A stretch of DNA of 64,000 nucleotides from the NCBI GenBank assembly GCA_022565665.1, contig JAIUMI010000003.1:124001-188000 (forward strand), read 5' to 3'. This stretch comes from Glycocaulis sp. Lineage in GTDB: Bacteria; Pseudomonadota; Alphaproteobacteria; Caulobacterales; Maricaulaceae. This document shows, in pieces, positions 8,841 through 48,250 of this stretch. Position 1 is the stretch's first letter, and the number at the start of each line of letters is the position of its first letter. The notes under the pieces were generated by a model. It did no database searches, was not told where the DNA came from, and saw only the letters and a list, made by a program, of their open reading frames with translations. The position numbers and the translations under genes are program-made.

Positions 8841-8896
8841 GCGAACAGGTTTTTTCCATTTTCGTGTTTCACCGGCAGCGCCGGTGCCCAGTCCAA

Positions 8897-8976
8897 ATGG
8901 ATCCCGGGTCAAGCCCGCGAACCCGGTTGAGAGGCTCGGCGGTAAATACCGGGGTCCCGGCCCCCGAGCCGGGACC
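8897..8976 (+). repeat. R3 palindromic intergenic repeat, copy 1, with a strong hairpin
   Basis: An element starting ATGGATCCCGGGTCAAGCCC, shared with the copy at 30147 and in half form near 27846. It contains a perfect nine-base stem, GGTCCCGGC (8953-8961) with GCCGGGACC (8968-8976), ending on the anmK stop codon. It probably acts as, or replaces, a terminator for the convergent genes. Confidence 0.75.
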
Positions 8977-12449: not shown

Positions 12450-12621
12450 TCTTTAGTGCCGCAGCCCGTCCGGGCTGCGATGTTCCGCGCATTGGCGCGG
12501 GCGGCCGTTCGGCCTGGCGGCGCTACGCGCCGGGGGACGGTTCGGCCCCGTAAGGGGCCACCAGCGCGACTGCGCGCCCGCAGCTTTAGCGAGGAGCGAC
12601 GCACGGAGATGCGGAGCATCA
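12450..12621 (+). repeat. R1 multi-hairpin element, copy A
   Basis: Six hairpins in a row: GCAGCCC/GGGCTGC loop GTCC (12461-12478), CCGCGC/GCGCGG loop ATTG (12485-12500), GGCC/GGCC loop GTTC (12503-12514), CGGCGC/GCGCCG loop TAC (12518-12532), GGCCCC/GGGGCC loop GTAA (12544-12559), and GCGCG/CGCGC loop ACTG (12564-12577). A tail follows, containing AGCGAGGAGCGACGCACGGA, which is shared with copy B. It fills the gap between the convergent phosphoribosyltransferase and gltX genes. Confidence 0.85.
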
Positions 12622-12622
12622 A

Positions 12623-13969
12623 CTAAATTGATTTCCCCGCCAGCCGCGCCAGCACCGTTTCGCGCGGGATGAGCGGCAGGAGCACGTCCATCTCCGGACC
12701 ATGGTTCTGGCCTGTCAGGGCCTGACGCAGAGGCAAAAACAGATCGCGGCCCTTGCGGCCGGTCTCTGCCTTGATGGCGGAGGTCCACGCGCCCCAGCTT
12801 TCGCGCGTCAGATTGCCTTCCGGCAGCAGCACGGCGGCCTTGGCGGCATAATCCGCATCCTCGATCACGGGAGCGACCGGGCCTTCCACCAGACGCCACC
12901 AGTCAGCGGCGTCTTTCAGGCGGGAGAGATTGGGGCGCACGGCGAGCCAGAAGGCTTCATCGCCCTTGATGCCCAGCGCACGCAGACGCGCCACAACTGC
13001 GTCAAACGCCGCCTCGTGCAGGAGTTTGGCGTTCAGCCGCTCCATCTCCGCAAAGTCGAAGCGCGCAGGCGTGCGCGATACCTTGGAGAAATCGAGTTCA
13101 GAGGCCAGCGACGCCAGATCGGCACGCGCCTCGATCGGATCGGACGTGCCCAGCTTGGCCAGCAAAGAGAGGATGGCCATGGCCTCCATGCCCTCCTCCT
13201 CGCGCAGCGCCTTCACCGACAGCCCGCCAATACGCTTGGAGAGCTTCTCGCCGTCAGAGCCGACCAGTAGCGGGAAGTGGGCCATGTGTGGCGCCGAACC
13301 CTTGCCGCCCAGCGCCTCGAAAATCTCGATCTGCGCGGCGGAGTTCGTCACATGGTCCTCACCGCGGATCACATGGGTGATGCCCGCGTCCAAATCATCG
13401 ACGACGCTGGGGAGCGTGTAGAGATAGCTGCCATCCTCTCGGATCAGGATCGGGTCGGAGACAGAGCTGGTGTCGATATGGCTGGGGCCGCGCACCAGAT
13501 CATTCCACTCAATGCGCCCGCCCGACAGCTTGAAGCGCCAGTGGGGCTTGCGCCCCTCGGCTTCGAACTTTGCCTTGTCCGCATCGGTCAGGTTCAGCGC
13601 CGCGCGGTCATAGACGGGCGGCTTGCCTTGCGCGCGTTGCAGCTTGCGCTTGCGGTCGAGCTCATCCTCGGTCTCGTAGCAGGGATAGAGGAAGCCCGTA
13701 GCGACCAGCTTTTCGCGCGCAGCTTCATACAGGTCGAAGCGATCCGATTGGTTGAAGCGCTCATCAAAGCCGAGGCCCAGCCAGTGGAGGTCTTCCACGA
13801 TCTGGTCCTCGAACGCCTTGGTGGAGCGTTCAAGATCGGTGTCATCCACGCGCAGCAGGAACACTCCGCCCTCGCGCCGGGCAAACAGCCAGTTCATCAG
13901 GGCAATGCGGACATTGCCGACATGGATGAGGCCGGTCGGGCTCGGCGCGAAGCGGACTTTCACGGACAT
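12623..13969 (-). CDS. gltX: Glutamyl-tRNA synthetase (HVGN type)
   Basis: A 448-residue class I synthetase that charges tRNA-Glu or tRNA-Gln with glutamate in the cytosol. The HIGH motif reads HVGN in FAPSPTGLIHVGNVR, and the KMSKS loop reads KLSKR. Many alphaproteobacteria carry two GltX proteins, and this HVGN variant at 448 residues resembles the second one. It may therefore serve tRNA-Gln mischarging ahead of the GatCAB amidotransferase. That specificity is inference, as no gatCAB gene or second gltX lies in the window. It is convergent with the phosphoribosyltransferase gene across an R1 repeat. Confidence 0.93.
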   Translation of the reverse strand: MSVKVRFAPSPTGLIHVGNVRIALMNWLFARREGGVFLLRVDDTDLERSTKAFEDQIVEDLHWLGLGFDERFNQSDRFDLYEAAREKLVATGFLYPCYETEDELDRKRKLQRAQGKPPVYDRAALNLTDADKAKFEAEGRKPHWRFKLSGGRIEWNDLVRGPSHIDTSSVSDPILIREDGSYLYTLPSVVDDLDAGITHVIRGEDHVTNSAAQIEIFEALGGKGSAPHMAHFPLLVGSDGEKLSKRIGGLSVKALREEEGMEAMAILSLLAKLGTSDPIEARADLASLASELDFSKVSRTPARFDFAEMERLNAKLLHEAAFDAVVARLRALGIKGDEAFWLAVRPNLSRLKDAADWWRLVEGPVAPVIEDADYAAKAAVLLPEGNLTRESWGAWTSAIKAETGRKGRDLFLPLRQALTGQNHGPEMDVLLPLIPRETVLARLAGKSI

Positions 13970-14051
13970 GGCTGTCTTTCAGGGCGGGTCTTGAGTGGTT
14001 CGGGCGAAGGCCGCTGGCTTTGCCATGCCCGCCCGCACGCGTCAAATGCGC

Positions 14052-14999
14052 TTACATGCGGCTGCGGCTGCCAGCCGCCGCATCAATGGCCAGCGCCGTT
14101 TCCAGCGCCACCAGCCCGGCCCGGCCATCGGCGGCCGGGCTGTCATGGGCCGGATCGAGCACGCGTGACACGAAGTTGAAGACACTGGCACCAAGGGAAT
14201 CCTTAGCCATCGGCCGGTCAGCAAAATCCGCGTCCAGACTGAGGCCGCTACCATTGTCAAAGCGCTTGCGGATGAAATCCACGCCCAGAGCCGCCCCGCC
14301 TTCAAACACGATATCCATCACCCGGTCGCGATCCGCCGCCACACGGCTGGATTCCAGCTCGGCCACGCGCCCGCCGGAGAAATGAAGCCGGGTGACGATA
14401 TGGTCAGCCAGCGCGCCGCGTTCAGCCAGCATCTGCGCCTCAACCCGCTCGGGCGCTTCTCCGGCCAGCGCCAGCACCAGATCGATATCGTGGATCATCA
14501 GGTCCAGCGTCACCGACACATCCAGATTACGCGCCGACGGCGTGCCCATGCGCCGGGCGCTCAGGCGCTCAAAACGCGGCATACCCGCCCCGAACAGGCC
14601 CATGGCGGCAAACACGAAGCGCTCCTGATGGCCCACCTGCAGCACGCGGCCATACTTGCCCGCCAGCGCGATCAGTTCCTGCCCCTCCTCCACCGTCGCG
14701 CAGAGCGGCTTCTCCACCAGCACATGCCGGCCCGCACCGAGCGCACGGCTGGCCGCATCGTGGTGGAAGAGCGCAGGGCTCGCCACCGTGATGATATCGG
14801 CTTCCTCGATCATCGCGTTCAGCGAGGTGAAGGCGATGGCGCCGAATTGGCGGGCGATGGCGCGCGCGCGGTCGCGCACCGGATCGAACACGCCGATGAA
14901 CTCGGTGCGTTCGTCACCGGCATATTTGCCCGCGTGATAGCCGCCAAAGACGCCCGCGCCGACGACCCCGGCGCGCAAGGGTTGGGATGCATTGCTCAT
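14052..14999 (-). CDS. Gfo/Idh/MocA-family NAD(P)-dependent oxidoreductase
   Basis: About 315 residues. The N-terminal Rossmann domain carries GVVGAGVFGGYHA, and the family's EKP motif appears in HVLVEKPLCATVEEG. The C-terminal half holds the alpha/beta substrate domain, with the block SVTLDLMIHDIDLVLAL including the conserved His-Asp pair. Members oxidise or reduce sugars, inositols or biliverdin-like substrates, and nothing here identifies this one's substrate. The ATG at 14999 (MSNASQP) starts just before the Rossmann fold. The open frame runs 12 codons further up to 15035. It is divergent from the MDR-family oxidoreductase. Confidence 0.88.
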   Translation of the reverse strand: MSNASQPLRAGVVGAGVFGGYHAGKYAGDERTEFIGVFDPVRDRARAIARQFGAIAFTSLNAMIEEADIITVASPALFHHDAASRALGAGRHVLVEKPLCATVEEGQELIALAGKYGRVLQVGHQERFVFAAMGLFGAGMPRFERLSARRMGTPSARNLDVSVTLDLMIHDIDLVLALAGEAPERVEAQMLAERGALADHIVTRLHFSGGRVAELESSRVAADRDRVMDIVFEGGAALGVDFIRKRFDNGSGLSLDADFADRPMAKDSLGASVFNFVSRVLDPAHDSPAADGRAGLVALETALAIDAAAGSRSRM

Positions 15000-15139
15000 G
15001 GGGGCGGAGATTGCACATTGCGGGCCATCACTCAAAGAGAGAATGCACGCACAGACGGCGCGGCAGGCTTGCGGGGAACGCCCTTACGCTTAAGGATGCA
15101 TACCCGAACCTCCAAAGCAGCGGCACCAAGGGGCTGTCC

Positions 15140-16135
15140 ATGAAATCGCGTGAAATCCATCTCGTTCGCCACTTCACCGGCAAGGTGAAGCCAGAATACT
15201 TCACCCTGGCCGAAGTGACCCTGCCTGAACCGGCCGATGGCGAGGTGCTGGTGGCCAATGAATGGCTTTCCGTTGACCCCTATATGCGCCCGCGCATGGC
15301 AGGCCTGAAAACATATATCGACCCGTTCATGCCCGGTAAGCCCATGGAAGGCGGCGCTGTCGGCAAGGTGATCAAATCACGCTCCGACGCCCTTAAAGAG
15401 GGCGATTATGTAATGAGCATGCTGGGCTGGCGGGAAGCCTATGTCGCGCCTGCCAAGGGCCTGATCAAGGTCGATGCGAGCCTGCTGCCCGCCCATGCCT
15501 ATCTCGGTATTGCGGGCCTGACCGGGCTCACCGCCTATGCAGGCCTGAAAGCCATCATCGATCTCAAACCCGGCGAGACGCTTTGGATGAGTGCGGGCGC
15601 AGGCGCGGTCGGTTCTGCCGGCATCCAGTTTGCCAAGGCCATGGGCGCGCGCGTGATTGCCACCGCTGGCGGCAAGACCAAGACCGATTTCTGCCTGGAG
15701 ATCGGGGCGGACGCCGCCATCGACTACAAGGCCGTGCCGGATCTGCGCAAGGCCATCAAGGAGGCGGCGCCTGAGGGCATCGACGCCTATTTTGAAAATG
15801 TCGGCGGGGACCATCTGGTCGCCGCGCTGGATCTGCTGAAGACCCATGGCCGGATCGCCGCCTGCGGGATGATCTCGCGCTATAACGACGAAACGCCCTC
15901 ACCCGGCCCGCACAACATGACCAATATCGTCACCAAATCGCTGATGATGCGCGGCTTCATCGTCACCAGCCATTTCGACCTGCAGGGCGAGTTCATCAGG
16001 GACCTGTCCGACTGGATGCTGTCGGGCAAGGTGAAAAGCCGCGAAACGGTCCATGAGGGGATCGAGAGAATGCCCGAAGCCTTCATGGGCCTCTTCACCG
16101 GGGGCAATCTCGGCAAGATGCTGGTGAAGGTGTGA
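15140..16135 (+). CDS. NADP-dependent medium-chain oxidoreductase (YncB/CurA-like enone reductase)
   Basis: A 332-residue zinc-free MDR enzyme related to leukotriene B4 dehydrogenases, 2-alkenal reductases and curcumin reductase. The opening NEWLSVDPYMRPRM is a hallmark of this group. The nucleotide-binding site is SAGAGAVGSAGIQFAKAMGA, followed by the FENVGG motif. Such enzymes reduce alpha,beta-unsaturated carbonyls with NADPH in the cytosol. ATG at 15140 matches relatives. The longer open frame above it overlaps the divergent gene and lacks family similarity. Its last codon overlaps the thioesterase start, so the two genes form an operon. Confidence 0.9.
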   Translation: MKSREIHLVRHFTGKVKPEYFTLAEVTLPEPADGEVLVANEWLSVDPYMRPRMAGLKTYIDPFMPGKPMEGGAVGKVIKSRSDALKEGDYVMSMLGWREAYVAPAKGLIKVDASLLPAHAYLGIAGLTGLTAYAGLKAIIDLKPGETLWMSAGAGAVGSAGIQFAKAMGARVIATAGGKTKTDFCLEIGADAAIDYKAVPDLRKAIKEAAPEGIDAYFENVGGDHLVAALDLLKTHGRIAACGMISRYNDETPSPGPHNMTNIVTKSLMMRGFIVTSHFDLQGEFIRDLSDWMLSGKVKSRETVHEGIERMPEAFMGLFTGGNLGKMLVKV

Positions 16136-16548
16136 GCACACCCAGCCTTGAACAGATCAATGCGGTAAGCGCGGGCAAGCTGCCCGGCCTCATCGGTCTT
16201 GAGATCACCAGTTCCGATCCGGCGCGTGTGCTGGGCCATATAGATGTGCGGGAAGAGCTACTCGCGCCCAATGGCTTCCTGCACGCCGCCAGCGTGATCG
16301 GGCTGGTGGACTCGCTGTGCGGCTATGGCGCAATGGCCAACCTGCCCGATGGCGCGGTGAGCTTTACCACGGTGGAGCTGAAATCCAACTTCCTGGGCAC
16401 CGCGCGCGATGGCCGCGTGCTGGGCGAGGCCGTGCCGGTGCATCTGGGCCGCAATACGCAGGTCTGGGATGCCAAGGCGTGGCGGGAAGCCGATGGCAAG
16501 CCGGTCGCCCTCTTCCGCTGTACGCAGATGGTGCTCTACGCCCGGTGA
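16132..16548 (+). CDS. PaaI-family hotdog thioesterase
   Basis: A 138-residue single hotdog-fold protein. The NGFLHAASVIGLVDSLCGYG block corresponds to the PaaI signature (substrate loop plus central helix), and TVELKSNFLGTA is the following conserved strand. It probably hydrolyses acyl- or aryl-CoA thioesters as a homotetramer. The GTG start overlaps the stop codon of the upstream reductase (GTGTGA), so translation is likely coupled. This suggests a joint role in detoxifying or degrading enoyl-type compounds, though that is inference. Confidence 0.88.
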   Translation: MSTPSLEQINAVSAGKLPGLIGLEITSSDPARVLGHIDVREELLAPNGFLHAASVIGLVDSLCGYGAMANLPDGAVSFTTVELKSNFLGTARDGRVLGEAVPVHLGRNTQVWDAKAWREADGKPVALFRCTQMVLYAR

Positions 16549-16733
16549 CCGGCCTCAGGCCGGCGGAGCAGGAGCCGTCCCATGATGAAACCGCCGATCA
16601 GCGCGCCGGACAGCGCGGCCAGCGTCGCATTGTCGAACAGGCGGTCAAAGCCTGCATAGGCGAGAATCGCCGCGCTCAGGCCCAAACCTGTGGCGGCAGC
16701 GGTGTTCAGGAATGAGGCGCGTTGAGGTTCCAT
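16536..16733 (-). CDS. Small two-helix membrane protein (unknown)
   Basis: A 65-residue protein with two probable membrane helices, about 9-27 (LNTAAATGLGLSAAILAYAG) and 36-55 (LAALSGALIGGFIMGRLLL), and a basic C-terminus. I do not recognise a family. Its 3' end overlaps the 3' end of the thioesterase gene by 13 bases in the opposite direction. Coding status is supported only by the clear hydrophobic pattern and the lack of another explanation for this stretch. Confidence 0.5.
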   Translation of the reverse strand: MEPQRASFLNTAAATGLGLSAAILAYAGFDRLFDNATLAALSGALIGGFIMGRLLLRRPEAGHRA

Positions 16734-16942
16734 GATTTCCGTAACGCAAACACCGGGCCAGAATTCAACCTTTTGTTTACCATATGGACGGGATCAATGG
16801 CAGTGGGCTGTGCAAAACACCCCGACTCACCTGTATTTCCTTGCTATGCGTTGGAAGAATCGCGATTGATTCATCCGTCCAATGAATGGCCGGGCCAGCC
16901 GCTTGCGGCGGGCAAGGCGCCCTTAAAACGGGGGGAACCCTC

Positions 16943-17209
16943 ATGAACAAGTCAGAACTCGCCAAAGCCATCTCCGACAAGGCCGGGATCACCCGCGCCC
17001 AGGCCGGTGACGCCATCGACAGCTTCATCGACGCCATCGTCGCTTCGGCCAAGAAAGGCGAGACCGTTCAGCTTGCCGGTTTTGGCACCTTCCACGCCAA
17101 GCACCGTGAAGCGCGTGAAGTGCGCAACCCGCGCACGGGCGAGAAAATGAAGTCGAAGGCGAAGACCTCGCTGGCCTTCCGTCCGGCTTCGGCCCTGAAG
17201 GACATCTAA
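16943..17209 (+). CDS. hup: HU-type histone-like DNA-binding protein
   Basis: An 88-residue HU/IHF-family protein that bends and compacts DNA as a dimer. The N-terminal MNKSELAKAI, the FGTFHAKHREAREVRNPRTG arm region and the C-terminal TSLAFRPASALKD are typical of HU beta. ATG at 16943 was chosen from the family start. The open frame extends 19 codons upstream with no similarity. It stands alone with its own strong terminator, and the upstream 200 bases should contain its promoter. Confidence 0.95.
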   Translation: MNKSELAKAISDKAGITRAQAGDAIDSFIDAIVASAKKGETVQLAGFGTFHAKHREAREVRNPRTGEKMKSKAKTSLAFRPASALKDI

Positions 17210-17241
17210 GGCTTTTCTGGTCTTAATTGATTTCGCGAAAC

Positions 17242-17268
17242 CGCCGCCGGGAGACCGGCGGCGTTTTT
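17242..17268 (+). terminator. Rho-independent terminator after hup
   Basis: A perfect nine-base GC stem, CGCCGCCGG (17242-17250) with CCGGCGGCG (17255-17263), a GAGA tetraloop, then five T residues. Confidence 0.93.
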
Positions 17269-17345
17269 GTCTGCGGCGACGGACGGCATCACCGCGCCGC
17301 AGCCCGTCTCTTGCCGAGGTCCAGCCACAACGCTAAAGCCGTTAC

Positions 17346-17753
17346 ATGGTAACAGCGCTCCGCCCTCTCCGGCATTTCCTTGCCGTCATCGCCTTCATCG
17401 GCGCGTTGACGGGCGGTCTGATGCCGTCCGGCTGGATGCCCGAAGCCCACGGCGATGGCCAGTTCAGCCTGGTCATCTGTACCGCTGACGGCCCGCTGAC
17501 CCTCACCCTGGACGAGCACGGCCAGCCGGTGGACGCCGATGCACTGGAAGAGGTCGCAAAAGACACGCGCTGTGACTTTGCCGGCCTTGCCGGCCCGGCG
17601 ATGCTTCCCGAAAGCCCTGCCCTGCTAGCGATCACGCACCCGCAAAGCCTTGTCATCAAGGCGCAATCGGAGGCGCTGGCACGCAACCCGGTCCGGCTGC
17701 CCGGACAGCGCGGCCCGCCCTCCTTCCCGGAATTCCTCTCCTTAAGCGCCTGA
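17346..17753 (+). CDS. DUF2946-like exported protein upstream of a TonB receptor
   Basis: 135 residues: an N-terminal signal or anchor (LRHFLAVIAFIGALTGGLMP), then FSLVICTADGPLTL with a Cys, a second Cys in KDTRCDFAG, and a proline-rich end with RGPPSFPEF. This order of an ICTADG motif, a cysteine and a C-terminal RGPP block resembles DUF2946, a family often found beside TonB receptors and thought to be linked to metal handling. It lies 63 bases before the TonB receptor and in the same direction, so the three genes through PepSY form one transport cluster. Function is not known. Confidence 0.7.
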   Translation: MVTALRPLRHFLAVIAFIGALTGGLMPSGWMPEAHGDGQFSLVICTADGPLTLTLDEHGQPVDADALEEVAKDTRCDFAGLAGPAMLPESPALLAITHPQSLVIKAQSEALARNPVRLPGQRGPPSFPEFLSLSA

Positions 17754-17816
17754 TCCCGCGTGCAGACACGCGGGGTCCGGCACCCTGCATATTCTTCGAA
17801 CTTCCGGGATCTACAC

Positions 17817-19874
17817 ATGAAAACCGAGCTCATGGCGTGTGCCGCCGGCACCGCGCTTCTGGCCATGCTGGCCACACCTGCCTTTGCCGAAACCCTCGAC
17901 ATTGAAGCCTCCGACACCACCGACCGCGTGGTCGTGACCGGTTACCGGCTCAATGCACCGGCCGAGGAAGCCGCCGCCGAGATCGCCCGTCAGGCGGGCA
18001 ATATCGCCCTTGTCGACGCCGAAAGCTTCTCGACGCGCTACGCGATCGGGTTCGCTGACACGCTCGCCTTCACCGCCGGTGTGGTGGCCCAGCCGAAATT
18101 CGGCGAGGATTCGCGACTGTCTGTGCGCGGTTCGGGCCTTGCCAACAACATGCATCTTCGCGGCGTGGAACTTCTGTTCAATGGTGTGCCGATCAACAAC
18201 GCGGACGGGTTTGGCGATTATCAGGAGATCGACCCGCTCTTCGTCTCGCATATGGCGGTCAATCGCGGGGCCAATGGCTTCCGCACCGGCTCCACCATGC
18301 TGGGCGGCTCCATCGAGATCATCGGCATCAGCGCCGCTTCGCTGGACAGCGGCTCGGCCCTCCGTGCCGAGGGCGGCTCGTTTGGCACCTCGCGCCTGCA
18401 TGGCCGTACCAGCGGCGTTCAGGGCAGTCTGGACTATGCCTTTGCCGGGACATGGCAGCGCCAGGACGGCTTCCGCCCCAATGCCAACCAGTCCAATGGC
18501 CGCCTCTATGCCGATCTCGGCTGGCGCTGGAATGACAGTGTCGAGACCCGCTTTGGCGTGCTTCGCAGCGACATCAATCAGGAAATGCCGGGCAGCCTTA
18601 CGCTGGCCCAGCTGCGCGCCGATCCGCGCCAGCCCGATCCTGCCGCCATTGCCGGGCAATATGCACGCGACATGAATGCCTGGCGCGGCTGGACGGTGTC
18701 CCATTTCGATACGGGCCTGGGGCGGTTCTCCGTCGGCGGCAGCGCTACCACGCGCACGCTCTGGCACCCGGTTCCGGTCATTGTCGATCAGGACATGGAG
18801 GATTACCGCCTTTTTGCCCGCTGGAGCCATGAAGCCGAGCTGGCGGGCCTGCCGGTCGAGTTCACACTTGGCGGCGATCTGCGGCGCGGTGAAACCGACG
18901 CAAGGGTCTTCCTCAATAATGGCGGTCAGGCCGGATTCCAGATCGGTGACAGCGTACAGACCGCAACCGGCGCCAACGCCTTCCTTGACGTGCGCTTAGG
19001 CGTGACGGAGCGCTTCGATCTGCTGGCGGGGCTGGTGAACAATTCCACGCGGCGCGAGGTTGATAACCGTCTCGCGCCAGCAGCGGGCGGCGATGTCAGC
19101 TTCTCCAGCCTGACAGGCCGCATCGGCGCGCTTTACCGCTTCGATGATGCACTGACCGGCTTTGCCAATATCAGCCAGATCGTCGAGCCACCGACCTTCT
19201 CCGACCTGACGCAAGGCGGCGTGGGCGGGTTTACCCCCATCCGCGCGATGGAAGGTACCAGTTATGAGATCGGCCTGCGGGGCGCGTATGAGCGCGTCCG
19301 CTTTGAGGCCGCGCTCTACCGGATCCATCTGGATAATGAGTTTACCGCCTTCACCGTGGTGCCGGGCATTCCAGCCGCCATCTTCAACGCCGATGACACG
19401 GTGCGTAACGGGTTCGAGCTGGGCGCAGAGGCGCTGCTGCATGACGGCACAAGCGGCGCGTGGCGCACGCGGCTGGCCTACACCTATGGCGATTTTCGCT
19501 TCGATGGCGATGCGGTTTATGGCGATAACCGGCTGCCGGGTCTTGGCCGTCAGAGACTGGTCGCCGAGCTGCGCTACGCCATCGGAGCGTTCGAGATCGC
19601 GCCGAGCCTCACCTGGCAGAGCGGGGACGGCTTCACCGATTACATGAACACCGAAAAGCTGCCCGGCCATACGCTGGTTGGCCTGTCGGCGCGCTATGAG
19701 GTGAATGAGCGCATCGGGCTCTATCTGGAGGGGCGTAACCTGACTGACCGGGCCTATGTCTCGGCGGTCTCCACCGTTGCCAATGCGGCCACCGCCGCGC
19801 CCGCCCGCTTCACGCCGGGTGAAACCCGTGCGCTCTATGCCGGGATCACGCTCGCCTTCGGAGGCGGGCAGTGA
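17817..19874 (+). CDS. TonB-dependent outer-membrane receptor
   Basis: A 685-residue outer-membrane protein. A signal peptide (MKTELMACAAGTALLAMLAT, cleaved after AFA) is followed by a TonB-box-like DRVVVTGYR, a plug domain to about residue 165 (LSVRGSGLANNMHLRGVEL), and a 22-strand beta-barrel ending in TLAFGGGQ. Such receptors import metal chelates, vitamin B12 or sugars using energy from TonB. The neighbouring DUF2946 and PepSY genes favour a metal complex such as a ferric siderophore. ATG at 17817 gives a proper signal peptide. Confidence 0.92.
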   Translation: MKTELMACAAGTALLAMLATPAFAETLDIEASDTTDRVVVTGYRLNAPAEEAAAEIARQAGNIALVDAESFSTRYAIGFADTLAFTAGVVAQPKFGEDSRLSVRGSGLANNMHLRGVELLFNGVPINNADGFGDYQEIDPLFVSHMAVNRGANGFRTGSTMLGGSIEIIGISAASLDSGSALRAEGGSFGTSRLHGRTSGVQGSLDYAFAGTWQRQDGFRPNANQSNGRLYADLGWRWNDSVETRFGVLRSDINQEMPGSLTLAQLRADPRQPDPAAIAGQYARDMNAWRGWTVSHFDTGLGRFSVGGSATTRTLWHPVPVIVDQDMEDYRLFARWSHEAELAGLPVEFTLGGDLRRGETDARVFLNNGGQAGFQIGDSVQTATGANAFLDVRLGVTERFDLLAGLVNNSTRREVDNRLAPAAGGDVSFSSLTGRIGALYRFDDALTGFANISQIVEPPTFSDLTQGGVGGFTPIRAMEGTSYEIGLRGAYERVRFEAALYRIHLDNEFTAFTVVPGIPAAIFNADDTVRNGFELGAEALLHDGTSGAWRTRLAYTYGDFRFDGDAVYGDNRLPGLGRQRLVAELRYAIGAFEIAPSLTWQSGDGFTDYMNTEKLPGHTLVGLSARYEVNERIGLYLEGRNLTDRAYVSAVSTVANAATAAPARFTPGETRALYAGITLAFGGGQ

Positions 19875-21184: not shown

Positions 21185-21196
21185 CGCCTGACGCAC

Positions 21197-21232
21197 AAGA
21201 CCCCGGACGCCGCTGAGGCGGTCCGGGGTCTT
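21197..21232 (+). terminator. Bidirectional hairpin terminator between convergent genes
   Basis: A perfect 12-base stem, AAGACCCCGGAC (21197-21208) with GTCCGGGGTCTT (21221-21232), between the PepSY gene and the porin gene, which converge here. Confidence 0.8.
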
Positions 21233-21261
21233 GCAAGGCAGTCCCGGCGATGCTGCGCAGC

Positions 21262-22566: not shown

Positions 22567-22664
22567 GGAACACCCGGACGAGAGGAACAAACCGGGCGTC
22601 AATACACTCTGAAAAGTTGACTTTACGCTTAACCATGTGGCGCAAGGCAAAAACGAGCGTTGCG

Positions 22665-24007
22665 CTAGAACCGCGTGGAGACTGCCAGATAGCCATAGAC
22701 CGGATTATCGGCATCGGGCGCGCCCGGCGCCTCGCGGGCGAACCGGCCCTTGATAAGCGTCGCGGTACCAAACTCGATATCGAGCCTGCGTTCAGGCAAA
22801 GCGCGCCACTGCACCCGCGCATCCACCACCTGGCCCACATGACGGCCCGATGCGCCGGTTTCATCGCGCAGACGCGCGCGCACCCATTGGTCACTGCCCG
22901 AAGCCAGACGCACATCCTGCACCAGCAGATGGGCCCTCACCGGCCCCTCACGCACTTCCAGGCGCGCGCCCGTGCTGATCATGTTCTGGCGTGATAGCGG
23001 GCCGAAAATGCCGGTATGGCCGAAATCACTGCCTCGCCCGCCAAACAGCGGGTTGAACCGGTTCCACTCCCCGTCCCCCGCCACATCATCGCCGCTGGCC
23101 CACGCCGTCTGAAAGGAGAGGCGCGGCGTCCAGCGCGTATCGAACGTGTAGCCGGCCACAAAATGCGTGCTGGCCGCGCGCACATCCTGGCGCAAGCCGC
23201 CAGTCACGGAATGACCCGTCTGGCCTGCAGCGCGGCCTCGAAATCGGCCCGCCCCGGCTGTGCCTCCCGCCAGAGCCTTGCGCCCGGCGTGTAAAGCCGC
23301 GTGCCATCAGCCTGGTCCAGCACGAATAGATAGGCTTCCGCGTTGATATTTTCGGGCAAGCCGGTGCGGGCAAGATGCGCGCCCATGAAGCGTGTGTCCC
23401 AGTCGACCCGGTCAAACCGATGAGCATTGCGGCGCAGGCTCGCCTGATCGGACGGGCGGCGCTCCACCGGCGCGGTGACAAAGCCCAGAAACTGCCAGTG
23501 CTCGCCCGGAGAGATGCGCAGCTGCACGCCTTCAAAATTGTCCGGCACATTGGAAAACGAGCTGGCGTCTGAGAGCCGCTTGGAGCCTATCGGCATGATG
23601 AAGCGCCCTGCCCGGACGCTGACCCGTTCGCCGAGCGGAAGATCAAGATAGGCCTGATAGATATCGAGCGCATTGACCGCGCTGGTGGCGACAATCGAGC
23701 CATCATCGGCCAGTGCGCCGTGTGCATCGATCAGCTCTGCCACACCTGTTACCTGCCCCATGCGCACATCGGCGCGCAGGAAAATCTGGCTGGAGAGAAA
23801 CTGGTCAGAGCCCTCCAGCCCGGCCCGGAAGGGCGCGCTCAGGCTTTCATAACGCACACGGACAGAGCCGGAGAAATTCACCTCGAAGCCGGACGCCGCT
23901 TCCTGCTGCGACGACGCGTCCTCCGCCAGCGCCTTACCTTGGCTGGCAACCATGTACAGGCACCCCGCCGCAAGCGCGGTTAACCATCGTCCCGGCCTGA
24001 TCTGCAT
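22665..24007 (-). pseudogene. Second alginate-export-family porin, broken by a one-base frameshift
   Basis: Two frames, 24007-23204 and 23207-22665, together make one porin like the one at 21262-22566. The first gives the signal peptide and N-terminal barrel (VRVRYESLSAPFRAGLEGSD, FSNVPDNFEGVQLRI). The second gives the C-terminal barrel (WNRFNPLFGG, VYGYLAVSTRF). At about 23220, reading CAG GC CAG ACG GGT instead of CAG GGC CAG ACG GGT drops one base. Restoring it gives QGQTGHSVTGGLRQDVR, which lines up with GQTGDQPVGGNTLDVR in the intact paralogue. As written the first frame ends early, after 267 residues. This is either a recent inactivation or a sequencing error, and no slippery heptamer is visible. 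Confidence 0.85.
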
Positions 24008-24147
24008 AGCGCCTGTCCCGCTGCCAGACGGCCCGCGCTGTTACAGAACAGTCGCAAAGCCGTCACACACGGAAGTTCGCACTAACGCAATCACAAGCCG
24101 GGTCAAGCCCGATGCTCAGAACACGGAAGAATAGAGGGGCGCCGCCC

Positions 24148-25515
24148 CTATTCCGCCGCCTCGCGCATGGGCGCGGCGGGCTTGAGCGCATCGGCGATCT
24201 GGAACGCCATCTCGAGGGCCTGATCGGCATTCAGGCGCGGATCGCAATGCGTGTGGTAGCGGCTGGAAAGATCAGCTTCGGAGAGATGCCCTGCCCCGCC
24301 CACGCACTCGGTCACGTCCTGGCCGGTCATCTCGAAATGGACGCCGCCGGGCTCCGCGCCCTCGGACCGCACCACCTCGATAAAGCTCTTCAGCTCGGAG
24401 AGGATGCTGTCAAAGCCGCGCGTCTTGTAGCCATTGCCAGCCTTGACCGTATTGCCGTGCATCGGATCACACGACCAGACCACATTGCGCCCCTCGGAGA
24501 CCACCTTGCGGACCAGAGGCGGCAGGCCCTTTTCCACCTTGCCGGCGCCCATACGGGCGTAGAGCACGAGACGGCCCGCCTCATTGCGCGGATTGAGAAG
24601 ATCAATCAGCTCGATCAGCTCATCAGGGTCCAGCGTCGGGCCGCATTTCAGGCCGATAGGGTTTTCCACGCCGCGGCAATATTCCACATGCGCGCCATCG
24701 GGCTGGCGGGTGCGGTCGCCGATCCAGATGAGGTGGGCAGAGGTGCCGTACCAGCGCCCCGACTGGGCCTCCATGCGCGTCATCGCCTCTTCGAAGGGCA
24801 GGTGCAGCGCCTCATGGGAGGTATAGAAATCAACGCCTTCGAGCGAGGGCGCGGCATCGGCCGTCACGCCGCAGGCGCGCATGAAGGCCAGCGCCTCGGT
24901 GATGCGGTCGGCATATTCCTGATAGCGTTCGCCGGCCGGGCTGCCGGAGAGAAAGTCCAGTGTCCACTGATGCACGTTGTGCAGGTCCGCATAGCCACCC
25001 GACGCCAGCGCGCGCAGCAGGTTCAGCGTGGAGGCTGACTGGTCGTAAGCCCTTATCAGCCTTTGCGGATCAGGAATGCGCCCTTCCGGCGTGAAGGCCA
25101 TGTCATTGATGGAATCGCCCCGATAGGAAGGCAGCTCCACACCGTCAATCACTTCGGTATCCGCAGAGCGCGGCTTGGAAAACTGGCCTGCAATCCGGCC
25201 CACCTTCACCACCGGCTTGGCGGCGGCGAATGTCATCACCACGGCCATCTGCAGCAGCACCCTGAAGGTGTCGCGCACATTGCCTGCGGAGAATTCCTTA
25301 AAGCTTTCAGCACAGTCGCCGCCCTGCAGCAGGAAGGCCTGGCCCGAAGCCACATTGGCCAGCTGGCGGCGCAGGCGGCGTATCTCGCCGGCAAAAACCA
25401 GCGGCGGACGGCGAGACAGCTCGGCCTCGACCGCTTCGAGCGCGGCCTTGTCGGGATAGACCGGCAGCTGCCGGACTGTGCGTGTCCTCCAGCTATTCGG
25501 GTTCCATCCACTCAT
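24148..25515 (-). CDS. aroG: DAHP synthase, class II (plant-like)
   Basis: A 455-residue 3-deoxy-D-arabino-heptulosonate 7-phosphate synthase, which condenses phosphoenolpyruvate with erythrose 4-phosphate as the first step of the shikimate pathway. Class II features are [10 protein letters not shown] near residue 65, [33 protein letters not shown] and the late [11 protein letters not shown] and HTHCDPRLN, which supply metal ligands Cys, His, Glu and Asp. It lies 10 bases after the glutathione reductase gene on the same strand. The gene name is by function; other names for class II enzymes are in use. Confidence 0.94.
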
Positions 25516-25525
25516 CGCGCTACCT

Positions 25526-26914
25526 CTACCTTCCTGGTCGTAATTCGGGCGGGGTCCATTTTTCCCGCATGGTTACAAGCTCTTCGGCCACTGTCGGGTG
25601 CACCGCGCAGGTGGCATCGAACTGCTCCTTGGTCAGCCCGGCCTTCACCGCGATGGCGATGGCCTGGATGATCTCGGGCGCATCATCGCCCACAATGTGC
25701 ACGCCGAGAACCCTGTTCGTGCCGCGCTGCACAACAATCTTCATCATCATCCGGTCCGGATCGGGCCCGAGCATGCCCTTCATGGGCCGGAAACTCGTTT
25801 TGTAAACATCCACTTCGCCATGTTCGTGGCGCGCCTCCGCCTCGGTCAGCCCCACCGTGCCGACCGGCGGCTGGGTGAAGACGGCGCTGGCAACGTTGGA
25901 ATGATCGTAAGCCGTTGGATTATCATTAAAAACCGTCTCCACAAAGCAGACCGCCTCACGGATCGCGACCGGCGTCAGATTGACCCGGTTGGTGACATCG
26001 CCAACCGCGTAGATGTGGGGCACGCTGGTGCGCGAATATTCATCGACCAGCACGGCGCCGTTCCTGCCCGTCGCCACCCCTGCGTTCTCAAGGCCGAGAC
26101 CAGCGGTGTAAGCGTCGCGCCCGATCGCGAAAACCACTTCATCTACAACAAGTTCGTCGCCATTCTTGAGGTGAACCGCCTTCTTGCCGTCGCCCTGCTT
26201 TTCGATGCGGGTGAAGACGGTTTTGGTGATGACACGCACCCCTGCCCGCTTCAGGCCTTCATGGACGGCCTCGCGCACATCATCGTCAAAACCCCGCAGC
26301 ACCGTGTCGCCGCGATAGACGAGTGTGGTCTGGACCCCGAGCTGGGCAAAGACTTCGGCAAATTCGCACGCGATATAGCCACCGCCTGCAATCACCATGG
26401 ATGAGGGTAGCTTCTTCAGGTGGAAGAGGTGATCTGAAACAATCGAGTGTTCCACGCCTTCAAGCGTTTCATCTACATTGGGCCGCCCGCCCGTCGCGAT
26501 AAGAATACACTTCGCCGTTACACGCCTGCCTGAGGGTTTGAGTTCGAGCGTATGGGCGTCGATGAACTCGGCCCGTTCCTCGATCAGCTCCACACCCGCA
26601 TTGCCGAGGTTCTTCGCGTAAATACCTGAAAGCCTGTCGACTTCGGCGTTCATCGCGTCGCGGAATGCCGGCCAGTCGAAGGACGGGCTTCCCACCTCCC
26701 AGCCATAGGACTTGGCGAGTTCAAATTGCTTTTTGAAACCAGAGGCATAGACCATGAACTTCTTCGGGACACAGCCGCGGATCACGCAGGTGCCGCCGGG
26801 CCGGTGCTCCTCCGCCACGGCCACTTTCAGGCCTTTGAGCGCCGTCAGGCGCGAGGCGCGCACGCCCCCAGAACCGGCGCCGATGGTGAAGAGGTCATAG
26901 TCGAAATCGGACAT
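25526..26914 (-). CDS. gor: Glutathione-disulfide reductase
   Basis: A 462-residue FAD-dependent enzyme that reduces GSSG with NADPH in the cytosol. [11 protein letters not shown] (13-23) binds FAD. The redox pair is Cys43/Cys48 in [13 protein letters not shown], which has the glutathione reductase arrangement. The C-terminal [10 protein letters not shown] supplies the catalytic His-Glu. ATG at 26914 ([10 protein letters not shown]) is the family-like start, and the open frame runs 68 unsupported codons further up. It is followed 10 bases later by the DAHP synthase gene. Confidence 0.93.
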
Positions 26915-27207
26915 ATCCAGCCTGCCAAATCCTATGTTTTCAAAGAGTGAAAATGGGGTTTTCACCCCCCGATTCATAGGTCCGCGAGGGGGCAAATGAC
27001 ATAGGGCATTTTGGCCACGGGGGGAGGATAGTGGCAAACTTATCCTCGCTTTTCGCGGATTCCCTATTCCCGCAGCCCGAGCCGTGCCCCTCGAGGCCTT
27101 TGCCACCACGTCGGGCAAGTGATCAGAACGCGGAGATTGTTGGTTTTAGGTTGCCGCCCTAGATTTTTTTTGCATTAATGGACAAAGAAATTGGGATGGG
27201 GAGCAAA
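26915..27207 (+). other. Intergenic region between divergent gor and lipoprotein genes
   Basis: 293 bases with no convincing gene. It must hold promoters for both directions. The right end is unusually AT-rich for this genome (an eight-T run at 27164-27171), in keeping with a promoter for the lipoprotein gene. I see no repeat or RNA here. Confidence 0.5.
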
Positions 27208-27690
27208 ATGAATTTACTGAAATGTCTTTCGGTCGCGGCTGTTGCATTAAGTTTATCGGCCTGCGGTACTATTACGCGTGGAAGCAACGACACTTGGGTG
27301 GTGGAGACTACGCCTTCAGGGGCGTCGGTTTCAACATCCAATGGCTTTCACTGCCGGTCAACGCCTTGCGGAATTCGCATGCCCCGACGTTCGGAGTTCG
27401 TCGCTACAATAGAGCTTGAAGGCTATCACACCCACGAAGCCACGGTTACATATGGAGCTTCAACAGGTGGCGGCACTGCGATGGCCGGTAACGTTCTGCT
27501 GGGTGGCATTATCGGCGCCGGAATCGACGCCGGAACGGGCGCGATGAACGATCTTCGCCCAAATCCGTTGCAAGTAACGCTTCGCCCATTGCCCGAAGCA
27601 AGCGCTGTAGTTTCGGAGAGAGCGGTTGACGACACGGACTCTGATGCCTCGGATGGGGCGGAAGACGAAGATGAGGCGACCTCACGGTAG
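27208..27690 (+). CDS. Lipoprotein with a PEGA-like N-terminal domain (unknown function)
   Basis: About 160 residues. A lipoprotein signal peptide ends at the lipobox LSLSAC, so the mature protein begins at Cys and is anchored by lipid. The next part, VVETTPSGASVSTSNGFHC and ELEGYHTHEATV, resembles PEGA-type beta-domains found in surface proteins. A glycine-rich hydrophobic segment (VLLGGIIGAGIDAGTG) and an acidic tail (DDTDSDASDGAEDEDEATSR) follow. ATG at 27208 was chosen for its GGGGAG ribosome binding site and good signal peptide. Codon use is less GC-rich than its neighbours, which hints at different ancestry. Confidence 0.75.
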   Translation: MNLLKCLSVAAVALSLSACGTITRGSNDTWVVETTPSGASVSTSNGFHCRSTPCGIRMPRRSEFVATIELEGYHTHEATVTYGASTGGGTAMAGNVLLGGIIGAGIDAGTGAMNDLRPNPLQVTLRPLPEASAVVSERAVDDTDSDASDGAEDEDEATSR

Positions 27691-27845
27691 ATCATCAGCA
27701 AATACAACGTAAGCGATCACGCAAGCGCGCTGGAATTGCGTCAACCAATTATTGGCACGATATCGTTGATCCTGGCGGCAATCGCACGCCAAGGAGATCG
27801 GGCCGCATTTGGACCGGCGCGGGACTCTTGCGGGAGGTGGCCGTT

Positions 27846-27896
27846 CTGGGTCCCGGCTCGGGGACCGGGACCCCGGTTGGTGCCATTCAGGAAGCC
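27846..27896 (-). repeat. R3 palindromic repeat, half copy
   Basis: On the minus strand this reads ACCGGGGTCCCGGTCCCCGA and continues GCCGGGACCCA, matching the second half of the R3 copies at 8897 and 30147. The first half is missing. Confidence 0.6.
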
Positions 27897-27934
27897 TGGC
27901 AAGTTCAACACTGACCTCTCCGCCGAGGAGTCAG

Positions 27935-28023
27935 CCCGGCCCCGTAAGGGGCCACTAGGCCGAATGGCCGCCCGCGCCAGTGCGCGGAACATCGCAACGC
28001 GGATGCGTTGCGGAACTAAAGAC
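27935..28023 (-). repeat. R1 multi-hairpin element, copy C (truncated)
   Basis: Read on the minus strand: GCAACGC/GCGTTGC loop ATCC (28011-27994), CCGCGC/GCGCGG loop ACTG, GGCC/GGCC loop ATTC, and GGCCCC/GGGGCC loop TTAC. The sequence GTCTTTAGT before hairpin 1 is shared with copy A. The 3' part with hairpins 5 and 6 and the tail is absent. Confidence 0.8.
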
Positions 28024-28120
28024 CTCCCCCTGCATCATGACTGGCCATAAGGCCCGCCCGCCTGTATGAGGGCGCGCGAAAAGAACACTCAAGCTCCCCA
28101 GACGTCAGGAACACCGCCCC

Positions 28121-29947
28121 ATGACCTTCCCGGTCGAGAAACTGCGCAACATCGCCATCGTCGCCCACGTCGATCACGGCAAGACCACGCTCGTCGACAA
28201 GCTTCTGCGCCAGTCCGGCACGCTCGGCTCTCGCGGCGAGGAAGTCGAAAGGGTGATGGATTCCAACGATCTGGAAAAAGAGCGCGGCATCACCATCCTG
28301 GCCAAGAACACGGCCGTGACCTGGGGCGAGTGGCGCATCAACATTGTCGACACGCCCGGCCACGCCGATTTCGGCGGCGAGGTGGAGCGCGTGCTCTCCA
28401 TGGTCGATTCGGTGCTGCTGCTAGTCGATGCGGTGGACGGGCCGATGCCGCAGACCACCTTCGTGACGAAGAAGGCGCTGGCGCTGGGCCTCAAACCCAT
28501 CGTGGTCATCAACAAGATCGACCGGCCGAGCGCGCGCCCGGACTGGGTGGTGGACCAGACCTTCGACCTGTTTGACCGGCTGGGCGCCAATGACGAGCAG
28601 ATGGACTTTCCGGTCGTCTACGCTTCCGCCCTGCAGGGCTTTGCGACGCTCGATGCCAATACCCAGACCGACAATATGGACGCGCTGTTCCAGACCATTG
28701 TGGAGCGGGTCTCGCCCCCCGATGTGGACCCGAACGCCCCGCTCCAGCTTCAGGTCTCCGCGCTCGATTATTCCAGCTATACCGGCGTGATCGGCATTGG
28801 CCGCATCCGGCGCGGCAAGCTGGCCAAGAACCAGCAGGTTGCGATTGCGGGCGCGGACGGCAAGACGCGCAAAGGAAAAGTGCTGCAGGTGTTTGGTTTC
28901 CACGGGCTGGAGCGCGTGGAAATGGATAGCGCCAGCGCGGGCGATATCGTCACCTTCTCCGGCATTGATCCGCTCAACATTTCCGACACGCTGTGCGATC
29001 CCGAACACGTGGAGGCCCTGCCCGCCCTGGTGGTCGACGAGCCGACCATCTCCATGACCTTCCAGGTGAACGATTCCCCTTTTGCGGGGCGCGAAGGCAA
29101 GTTCGTCACCTCGCGCAATATCAAGGAGCGCCTCGACCGCGAGCTGATCCACAATGTGGCGCTGCGCGTGCAGCAGCTTGACGATGCCGACAAGTTCAAG
29201 GTCTCCGGCCGGGGCGAGCTGCACCTCTCGATCCTGATCGAGACAATGCGCCGCGAAGGCTTTGAGCTCGCGGTCGGTCGTCCCGAAGTGATCACGAAGA
29301 TCGTCGACGGGGTGGAGAGCGAGCCCTATGAGACGCTGACCATCGATGTGGAAGAAATCCACCAGGGCGGCGTGATGGAGCGCCTCGGCTCGCGCAAGGC
29401 CGAGATGAAGAACATGGTGCCCGATGGCAATGGCCGGGTGCGCCTTGACTATATCGTCCCCACGCGCGGCCTGATCGGCTTCCGCTCAGAGTTCCTCACC
29501 CTCACGCAAGGCTCCGGCCTGATGTTCCACGCCTTTGACCATTACGGCCCCAAACAGGCCGGCGAGGTGGGCCAGCGGCCCAAGGGCGCGATCATCTCCA
29601 TGGAGACCGGCAAGGCGCTGGCCTATGCGCTGTGGAATATCCAGGAGCGCGGCAAGCTGTTCATCGGCCACGCCACGGAAGTCTATGAGGGCATGATCAT
29701 CGGCGTGAACGCGCGCGAAGAAGACATGATCGTGAACCCGCTCAAAGGCAAGAAGCTCACCAATATCCGCGCCGCCGGCGCGGATGAGGCCGTTGTGCTG
29801 GTGCCGCCCATCCGGGTGACGCTGGAATTCGCCCTTGAGTTCATCAACGATGATGAACTGGTCGAGGTGACGCCGCAATCCATCCGCATCCGGAAAAAAC
29901 TGCTGCTGGAGCACGAGCGCAAGAAGGCCAGCCGCGAGAAGGCGTGA
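28121..29947 (+). CDS. typA: Ribosome-associated translational GTPase TypA/BipA
   Basis: A 608-residue GTPase of the EF-G family that binds ribosomes and helps assembly and growth under stress. The G domain shows [10 protein letters not shown] (G1), the ERGITI switch, [14 protein letters not shown] (G3) and [10 protein letters not shown] (G4). EF-G-like domains 2, 3 and 5 follow, and the TypA-specific C-terminal domain carries [12 protein letters not shown] and [20 protein letters not shown]. Length is normal. It is flanked on both sides by R1 repeats (copies C and B), in opposite orientation to each other. Confidence 0.96.
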
Positions 29948-29950
29948 TTT

Positions 29951-30120
29951 GGGTTCCGCAACGCATCCGCGTTGCGATGTTCCGCGCATTGGCGCGGGCG
30001 GCCGTTCGGCCTAGCGGCCCCTGACGGGGCCGGACTGCCCCCCGGCGCGCAGCGCCGCAAGCGCGACCGCGCGCCCGCAGCGTCAGCGAGGAGCGACGCA
30101 CGGATGTGCGGAGCATGCGG
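29951..30120 (+). repeat. R1 multi-hairpin element, copy B
   Basis: Hairpins in order: GCAACGC/GCGTTGC loop ATCC (29958-29975), CCGCGC/GCGCGG loop ATTG, GGCC/GGCC loop GTTC, GGCCCC/GGGGCC loop TGAC, CGGCGC/GCGCCG loop GCA, and GCGCG/CGCGC loop ACCG. The shared tail AGCGAGGAGCGACGCACGGA follows. Hairpins 4 and 5 are in the reverse order relative to copy A. With the R3 copy just downstream it fills most of the 331-base gap between convergent typA and astB. Confidence 0.85.
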
Positions 30121-30146
30121 AAAAATGGGCTGGGCACCAGAAAAGG

Positions 30147-30228
30147 ATGGATCCCGGGTCAAACCCGGGAACCCGGTTGAGAGGTAAGCGCAGAAACACC
30201 GGGGCCCCGGCCCCCGAGCCGGGGTCCA
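30147..30228 (+). repeat. R3 palindromic repeat, copy 2
   Basis: Starts ATGGATCCCGGGTCAAACCC and contains a strong hairpin formed by CACCGGGGCCCCGGC and its partner, as in copy 1 at 8897. A further palindrome, ATCCCCGCCTGCGCGGGGAT, lies at about 30239-30258. The rest of the gap to the astB stop codon at 30279 holds nothing that I recognise. Confidence 0.7.
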
Positions 30229-47939: not shown

Positions 47940-47970
47940 TTTTGTGGTGGATCCCCAAAACTCCAAACAC

Positions 47971-48083: not shown

Positions 48084-48121
48084 ATCGGAACGGTTTTCGC
48101 GACCGCTCAAACTCCCAACAG

Positions 48122-48238: not shown

Positions 48239-48250
48239 ATGGGGGGCATT

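Follow-up and report, generated by a model that had tools for sequence, protein, structure and literature searches.

A composite palindromic repeat in Glycocaulis with interchangeable hairpins and a micro-hairpin nested in loops

The window analysed here comprises 64,000 nt of a Glycocaulis sp. genome (G000; assembly GCA_022565665.1, contig JAIUMI010000003.1, positions 124,001-188,000 of the forward strand). Three copies of a multi-hairpin element, R1, were located where the original prediction had placed them and were also paired by a repeat finder. A covariance model search, as proposed with that prediction, recovered all of them (12450-12519, plus strand, 93.0 bits; 29947-30016, plus strand, 96.4 bits; 27953-28022, minus strand, 96.4 bits). 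Copy 1 (12450-12626, plus strand; fold z-score -3.23) is flanked by convergent genes, with a phosphoribosyltransferase-domain gene ending at 12413 and a class I tRNA synthetase gene ending at 12623. Copy 2 (29947-30121, plus strand; fold z-score -2.59) starts straight after the stop codon of bipA and lies between bipA and astB, which are likewise convergent. Copy 3 (27935-28023, minus strand; fold z-score -4.32), upstream of bipA, comprises only the left arm and the first centre hairpin, the right arm being absent.

Hairpins were read from the sequence, with pairs counted, on the plus strand of copy 1 as hairpin 1 (CGCAGCCC-GTCC-GGGCTGCG, 12460-12479), hairpin 2 (12485-12500) and hairpin 3 (GGCC-GTTC-GGCC, 12503-12514), and on the plus strand of copy 2 as hairpins 2 (29982-29997) and 3 (30000-30011). 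Hairpin 1 of copy 2 (CGCAACGC-ATCC-GCGTTGCG, 29957-29976, plus strand) was likewise read from the sequence, and the same hairpin was found, with pairs counted, in copy 3 (27993-28012, minus strand). The two compensated pair differences reported between hairpin 1 of copy 1 and that of copies 2 and 3 are real. The left arm is followed by a centre, which on the plus strand carries CGGCGC/GCGCCG (12518-12532) and GGCCCC/GGGGCC (12544-12559) in copy 1 (12518-12559) and the same hairpins in inverted order, GGCCCC/GGGGCC (30016-30031) and CGGCGC/GCGCCG (30043-30057), in copy 2 (30016-30057). Alignment of copies 1 and 2 gives 78.7% identity over 164 nt (E 6e-38), and positions 48-132 of copy 1 also match positions 128-44 of copy 2 on the reverse strand (77.6% over 85 nt). 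The predicted difference in the order of hairpins 4 and 5 thus holds, but it reflects an inverted centre instead of a simple swap. A diverged right arm faces the left arm on the minus strand in copy 1 (12559-12623, 27.5 bits) and in copy 2 (30056-30120, 31.3 bits).

R1 is built from two diverged arms that face each other, with the hairpins of each arm lined up in a set order, and the multi-hairpin anatomy and conserved hairpin order were borne out beyond the window. The left-arm model also matches the right arm on the opposite strand, so that R1 possesses the terminal inverted repeats characteristic of MITEs. BLAST detected 41 matching pieces in G000, and model matches at E<=1e-3, counted with right arms included and with 150 first-look candidates scored per genome, numbered at least 47 in G000, 71 in G001, 60 in G002, 58 in G003, 43 in G004 and 26 in G005, the six Glycocaulis genomes searched. 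Plasmid records gave no match. For the analysis of single arms, 102 left arms were defined as model matches of >=53 bits, out of 169, in regions chosen for the presence of R1; the 67 weaker matches left out were mostly right arms, with some left arms among them. Half of another palindrome, CCATGCCT or a close variant, adjoins 26 of the 102 left arms, as opposed to 0.8% of random positions. As the original prediction held, coding is improbable for R1, because copies differ by stop codons and by inserts of 22-24 nt, and a coding origin was rejected on these grounds. Intrinsic terminators were also rejected, since by inspection T-runs precede and A-runs follow the hairpins.

High-GC DNA folds readily, and shuffled copies fold strongly too, as would be expected if R1 were no more than simple palindromes in decay or GC-rich hairpins formed by chance. 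This reading was ruled out as highly improbable by the copy set itself: order, loops and spacers are conserved over the 102 arms, and 99.3% of stem cells are paired in 16 G000 copies compared with 27-45% after one side has been shifted by 1-3 columns (the alignment leaving out the nested-insert copies L004, L006 and L009, the truncated L015 and tail pieces). The loops of R1 are conserved, and its stems occur in interchangeable complementary versions.

Functional RNA structure is commonly argued from compensatory base changes, and the original prediction of structural selection drew on such changes. Hairpin 1 occurs in the 102 left arms mainly as two linked haplotypes, represented by 56 and 28 exact copies, whereas a third combination with full pairing, CGCAGCGC/GCGCTGCG, was found in a single copy; G004 (L061) and a second genus (L177) have further paired combinations. 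Pairing of hairpin 1 is 8/8 in 85 arms, 7/8 in 14 and 6/8 in 3, and the uncompensated stem evolution that would have spoken against the prediction was looked for in the same arms and did not occur. Since 84 of the 102 arms represent two exact haplotypes and one a third form, these differences point to few events, spread by block exchange. The compensated stems thus stand, but the covariation is weaker than it appears, as the two covarying pairs are linked. The pattern can be accounted for by module exchange and by template-switch correction as well as by structural selection.

Within one stem type, loops are more variable than stems. Departures from the nearer haplotype amount to 20/1616 stem sites (1.2%) and 35/1071 loop and spacer sites (3.3%; P=4e-4) in 101 arms (L122:13883 was dropped), a comparison that the choice of the nearer haplotype biases somewhat towards stems; sites just 5' of hairpin 1, 59/404 of which also differ, were kept out of the stem comparison. 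This better preservation of stems, together with the fold z-scores of the window copies (-3.2, -2.6 and -4.3), agrees with R1 being a structured RNA selected at transcript ends, for instance in the protection or processing of mRNA 3' ends, with paired changes reflecting selection for pairing. The genomic setting agrees as well, as convergent gene pairs, whose gaps make up 23% of intergenic bases, flank 41 of 79 classified left arms (excluding 20 arms within ORFs, as called by a crude caller, and three at edges). Unpaired cells, however, comprise seven C-A or A-C and five G-T or T-G combinations and show no strand bias, so that nothing here favours RNA over DNA; a scan of the window with Rfam at the gathering threshold yielded only tmRNA and tRNA and no family at the R1 copies; and orthologous sites differ in stem type, with R1 missing from some of them. 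A selected RNA role is possible, but we regard structured RNA as an unlikely primary explanation, and any role at transcript ends would be secondary.

At orthologous positions of sister species, R1 was found with other stems, without its centre, or not at all. Among 35 arm pairs proposed as orthologous, 24 share the same orientation, and seven of these differ in hairpin-1 type. Because L150/L162 did not align and L087 was doubtful, claims on stem differences were based only on pairs whose flanks aligned, which include L089 versus L146 and L157, L103/L144, L115/L150 and L129/L153. At the 3' end of bipA, hairpin 1 is CGCAGCCC/GGGCTGCG in G. albus (L140) as opposed to CGCAACGC/GCGTTGCG in copy 2; upstream of bipA, no R1 is present within the stretch shown in G. 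albus or G001 (L118). In a synteny attempt, bipA was not found at the AstB loci of four relatives (L166-L169). One case shows a deletion between two nested hairpins (L106 to L141), and the orthologous sites compared gave no clean pair of filled and empty R1 sites, with both junctions, on which a target-site duplication as in MITEs could be read. Since whole hairpins are replaced as blocks between orthologous sites, caution is warranted when covariation in dispersed repeats is taken as a sign of selection.

Stems could also be perfected, and paired changes generated, by template switching in imperfect palindromes, a mutational bias that would need neither selection nor much recombination among copies. 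Such a mechanism is described for RNA genes in the available part of PMC8794818, and the homogenisation of arms and inversion of spacers in that of PMC8604942; one copy (L154:7393) indeed has an inverted hairpin-1 loop. However, the ATCC loop is inverted in only 1 of 101 arms, the same two stem haplotypes recur at many loci, indicating copying between loci, and the micro-hairpin described below is left unexplained, so that template switching appears slightly less likely even than structured RNA. We consider it probable, though by no means certain, that R1 is a BIME/MITE-like, non-coding, composite palindromic intergenic DNA repeat that is reshuffled by recombination and carries a loop-inserted, REP-like micro-hairpin. 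Short-tract recombination (gene conversion) among R1 copies would exchange entire hairpins, and paired changes would come as blocks because of such swaps. In favour of this explanation, no linkage of hairpin 1 was detectable with hairpin 3 (75 arms, P=0.11) or with hairpin 2 (72 arms, P=0.13); the linkage between hairpins 2 and 3 (63 arms, P=1.7e-4) counts against it. The linkage tests took in 75, 72 and 63 of the 102 arms.

The micro-hairpin, M, consists of CCTG and a stem-loop and measures 22-24 nt in most matches. After looser patterns (1889, 650, 120 and 74 matches) had been given up, the final genome pattern gave 119 matches in the six genomes, compared with 6 for the reversed pattern. 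Stems of >=5 bp enclose 87 of the 119, in contrast to 19.8% with shuffled flanks and 6.3% at random positions, although at least two of the enclosed matches arose by accident, namely G002:C2:340298, with a coding appearance, and G001:2078410, a hybrid. The hosts of the 87 are R1-type loops in 56 cases and other palindromes in 28, with three unclassified. The base 5' of M is G in 86 of the 87, and the base 3' is A or T in 85. Clean pairs with and without M were found at orthologous places in sister species (91-94% identity), with no target duplication seen. In hairpin-2 hosts, M is preceded by G, yet the empty site has T, and insertion there is therefore not exact. Larger insertions in the host loops were rejected, since a spacing scan of six loops over 1.30 Mb gave distances of 0-2 or 22-25 nt, along with scattered long distances taken as chance from the examples listed (<=4 per host). 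In DNA retrieved for comparison, CCTG was the commonest tetranucleotide before the M hairpin core (50 cases). Of 24 M-like hairpins in another genus, 7 had an enclosing stem in the same test, with new hosts, though so small a share also counts against insertion into loops.

M could be an ordinary REP-like repeat whose transposase is lost or unseen and which inserts blindly to structure, with loops as tolerated sites. Like REPs in the available text of PMC3733652, it joins a tetranucleotide to a hairpin, and it forms a short intergenic hairpin in many copies, in the 20-40 bp range of REPs; an M-like hairpin of another genus also lies within a CGTCATTCC/GGAATGACG palindrome (L290). Yet the tag is CCTG, as set by the search pattern, and neither GTAG nor CGTC, and an IS200/REP-type transposase (Y1, RAYT) as its mover was not found in the six genomes: in a search of Y1 families, PF01797 was detected in 0/6 Glycocaulis and 5/14 control genomes, and NF047646 in 0/6 and 6/14, with one of the latter above the cut-off. 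Moreover, mere tolerance predicts that M should be frequent in plain intergenic DNA, whereas, of the 32 matches without an enclosing stem, nine were judged by eye to be chance and most others broken hosts. An ordinary REP is accordingly an improbable identity for M.

Under the preferred reading of R1, M would spread by insertion aimed at single-stranded hairpin loops, through a putative enzyme that is unrecognised or lost, and gene conversion between host copies would help it to spread; gain through gene conversion alone is possible. The most far-reaching reading, which we put forward tentatively and hold to be plausible rather than probable, is that M is a mobile DNA of 22-24 nt that targets a shape, an existing hairpin loop, and not a sequence, inserting after G without duplication or a recognised transposase, and that repeated nesting yields compound hairpins. 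R1 may have grown by the same nesting, as the half palindrome adjoining 26 of the 102 left arms would suggest. If truly inserted into loops, M would, to our knowledge, be among the smallest mobile DNAs, and structure-directed insertion would become testable in a non-pathogenic marine bacterium. The nesting of M in loops is what is new here, and it points to a spread of tiny DNA pieces that is as yet unexplained. Bacterial micro-hairpins nested in loops were not found in the titles and abstract openings of a literature set mostly devoid of subscription papers, nor did a similarly composed set contain a paper joining Glycocaulis with palindromes or Maricaulis with hairpin palindromic repeats.

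Among known systems, the Rhizobium-specific intergenic mosaic elements (RIME) of Sinorhizobium are mosaic intergenic palindromes of alphaproteobacteria, likened to R1 by description only. The double-hairpin elements of Allomyces are, like R1, mobile GC-rich hairpins that merge and shuffle. The GC clusters of yeast mitochondria (PMC4478555) and the hairpin elements of sponge mitochondria (PMC2800124) are also mobile GC-rich hairpins that merge and shuffle, but in the accessible parts of these sources their stems are conserved and their loops collect changes, whereas in R1 loops are conserved, with ATCC kept, and stems of several types are exchanged. The CcrM-associated CIR of Caulobacter, as far as the available text of PMC2229807 describes it, resembles R1 in being alphaproteobacterial, intergenic, about 110 bp long and composed of two hairpin arms, but has GANTC at its loop; R1 was rejected as a CIR, since a single one of the 102 left arms (70 nt each) contains GANTC and none of the three window copies does. 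Insertion sequences that target REPs enter, like M, at the axis of a palindrome, but according to the accessible portion of PMC1525189 they carry genes and, in ISPsy8, produce a 3-bp duplication, unlike the non-coding M of 22-24 nt with no duplication seen. The present elements also resemble REPs and BIMEs, which in the portion of PMC3733652 consulted are small intergenic palindromes with variable stems and loops that are joined into larger units and bear GTAG or CGTC beside the palindrome. From these, the Glycocaulis repeats differ in that no Y1 transposase was found in the six genomes, that M is tagged with CCTG and sits in the loops of other hairpins, and that R1 keeps its loops constant while its stems are interchangeable.

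The repeat R1, a dispersed intergenic multi-hairpin element, is present in the window at positions 12450–12626 (copy 1, plus strand), 29947–30121 (copy 2, plus strand) and 27935–28023 (copy 3, minus strand). The original prediction had placed these copies correctly: they were paired by a repeat finder and recovered by a covariance model. This model of the left arm, which had been proposed as a check, was built from 16 copies of the window's own genome; it recovers all three window copies, which match by construction because two of them are wholly among the 16 and the sequence of the third was entered as well. In the 16 copies, 99.3% of stem cells are paired, compared with 27–45% after sliding one side by 1–3 columns, and the fold z-scores of the three window copies are -3.2, -2.6 and -4.3.

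The full element consists of two facing arms, so that the left-arm model also matches the right arm on the opposite strand (copy 1, 12559–12623, 27.5 bits; copy 2, 30056–30120, 31.3 bits); copy 3 lacks a right arm. Each arm comprises, in order, a T-rich end, hairpin 1 (loop ATCC), a short spacer, hairpin 2, GGGC, hairpin 3 (loop e.g. GTTC) and a centre hairpin. In 1.30 Mb of DNA there are 88 ATCC-loop hairpins whose stem reaches 6 bp or more, compared with a median of 6 for the 256 tetraloops as a whole; this count is descriptive only because these regions were chosen for carrying R1. Hairpins 4 and 5 had been thought to swap order between copies; the copies do differ there, but the difference is rather an inverted centre (copy 1 versus copy 2, 77.6% over 85 nt).

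Model matches at E≤1e-3, right arms included, number at least 47, 71, 60, 58, 43 and 26 in the six Glycocaulis genomes (G000, the window's own, to G005, in order), with 150 candidates per genome scored. A match was found in 42 of 119 genomes sampled from the family, with a best E below 1e-12 outside Glycocaulis only in G062, G087, G095 and G118, which belong to a single other genus. The plasmid records searched yielded no match. For AstB, encoded next to copy 2, the nearest named loci are from Glycocaulis albus (86% identity), Oceanicaulis sp. HLUCCA04 (84%) and Glycocaulis profundi (79%). Contig C12 of G095 carries, at locus L177, two tandem R1-like elements 154 nt apart, whose hairpin 1 has the stem CAACCC/GGGTTG and a 3-nt loop.

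Copy 3 is located upstream of bipA, and the other two copies are each flanked by convergent genes. By a crude ORF caller, 79 classified left arms fell between convergent (41), tandem (29) and divergent (9) genes, the corresponding fractions of intergenic bases being 0.23, 0.52 and 0.25. Of the 102 left arms, taken as the matches of at least 53 bits among 169 model matches, 26 adjoin one half of a different palindrome family, CCATGCCT or a variant close to it (random positions, 0.8%), and in 13 of these 26 the other half follows within 420 nt downstream. The window also contains a second palindromic repeat family (47943–49466 and 8780–8843), with arms such as GGGGACCCATGCCT and AGGCATGGGTCCCC; arms lying 1.2 kb apart are 82% complementary over 156 nt, and R1 left arms elsewhere often adjoin it. 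Positions 57882–58244 hold an alphaproteobacterial tmRNA that matches the permuted tmRNA family too.

Compensatory changes had been noted in hairpin 1. Paired changes are indeed present, but the two covarying pairs are linked, so that cell counts overstate the number of events: 56 of the 102 left arms have precisely the stem CGCAACGC/GCGTTGCG and 28 have precisely CGCAGCCC/GGGCTGCG. One arm has CGCAGCGC/GCGCTGCG, further paired combinations occur in G004 (L061) and G095 (L177), and pairing is incomplete in 14 arms (7/8 pairs) and 3 arms (6/8). Linkage was not detected between hairpins 1 and 2 (P=0.13) or between hairpins 1 and 3 (P=0.11); hairpins 2 and 3 are linked to each other (P=1.7e-4). 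Stems differ from the haplotype at 20 of 1616 sites and unpaired positions at 35 of 1071 (P=4e-4), the nearer of two haplotypes being used, which favours stems somewhat. This better upkeep could reflect selection or correction by template switching, a process argued in PMC8794818 to produce compensatory changes. An inverted loop or spacer is a footprint described for it in PMC8604942, and one of 101 arms (L154:7393) carries GGAT for ATCC in hairpin 1 with the stem intact.

At orthologous sites with aligned flanks, stems differ between L089 and both L146 and L157, and between L103 and L144, L115 and L150, and L129 and L153. The copy at the bipA 3' end is of the AACGC type in G000 and of the AGCCC type in G. 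albus; R1 is missing there from G001, where another inverted repeat, CCTTCGAGACG...CGTCTCGAAGG, occupies its place (L118:13700–13996). On comparison of the aligned loci, these stem differences are read as block exchange. The tail stem differs between L106 and L141, the latter looking like an L106-like copy after deletion between two nested hairpins. No empty R1 site with both junctions was obtained among the orthologous loci compared.

Many model matches span 90–95 nt instead of 70 because a 22–24-nt hairpin, M, lies inside a loop. The pattern CCTGYSCCCG, 3–10 bases, CGGGKR, with unconstrained flanks, was matched 119 times in the six genomes (reversed pattern, 6). An uninterrupted flanking stem of at least 5, 6 or 7 bp encloses 87, 70 and 38 of these, respectively; at 5 bp, shuffling right flanks among the 119 gave 19.8% and random positions 6.3%. 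The 87 enclosed matches are hosted by R1-type loops (56), palindromes unrelated to R1 (28) or hosts left unclassified by patterns (3), with G preceding M in 86 and A or T following it in 85. At least two are accidental, namely the hybrid G001:2078410 and G002:C2:340298, whose G000 ortholog is conserved like coding sequence. The 32 stemless matches were split by eye: nine look like chance, and most others like broken hosts or hybrids, the latter with a left flank from one host and a right flank from another. A two-part repeat (window 8897–8973 and 30147–30223; 93–95% between copies) contains the palindrome GGATCCCGGGTCAA.CCCGGGAACCCGG, which has M in its loop in G002 and G003.

When M was omitted from queries no longer than 500 nt, at least 52 cross-genome alignments resulted, many of them paralogous or rearranged. 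The host loop is uninterrupted in G002 at the M sites of G001:2154019 (94.4% over 496 nt) and G003:2834 (91.1% over 496 nt), in G003 at G001:1003804 (91.2% over 501 nt), and in G001 at G003:620361 (94.0% over 430 nt) and G002:C12:11854 (91.0% over 499 nt); the hosts at both G001 sites are palindromes unrelated to R1. M is common to two species at six or more other sites. Comparison of occupied and empty sites revealed no target duplication, and in the two hairpin-2 cases M is preceded by G where T stands in the empty site; insertion there was therefore inexact. Some gains could stem from gene conversion with another M host as donor; a founding insertion is still needed in each unrelated host loop.

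M matches occur in 49 of the 119 family genomes, including the six Glycocaulis genomes, in many of them with counts like those of the reversed control; G107 (16 versus 2), G018 (14 versus 0), G014 and G089 (6 versus 0 each) and G080 (5 versus 0) exceed it. For another genus, g8, 20 regions from seven genomes, taken from listed match places, contained 24 M-like hairpins, of which 7 were enclosed by a stem of 5 bp or more, above the 6.3% random value and far below Glycocaulis; the hosts are new and include CCTCA/TGAGG (three) and CGTCATTCC/GGAATGACG (one).

In the best-supported reading, short-tract recombination reshuffles R1, a composite DNA repeat into whose loops insertions are directed. Short tracts would be exchanged between copies, and a putative enzyme would insert M by targeting loops. 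Searches of the six genomes with PF01797 and NF047646 returned no transposase of the REP or IS200 type. M resembles REPs in anatomy but has the tag CCTG, whereas PMC3733652 gives REP tags as GTAG or CGTC, the CGTC type being reported mostly from alphaproteobacteria. CIR repeats carry GANTC according to PMC2229807, unlike R1. Insertion sequences are described as striking REP palindromes, in the case of ISPsy8 on the axis of a hairpin predicted there (PMC1525189), and yeast GC clusters and sponge hairpin elements are reported to move, merge or shuffle, and to vary in loops, not stems (PMC4478555, PMC2800124).
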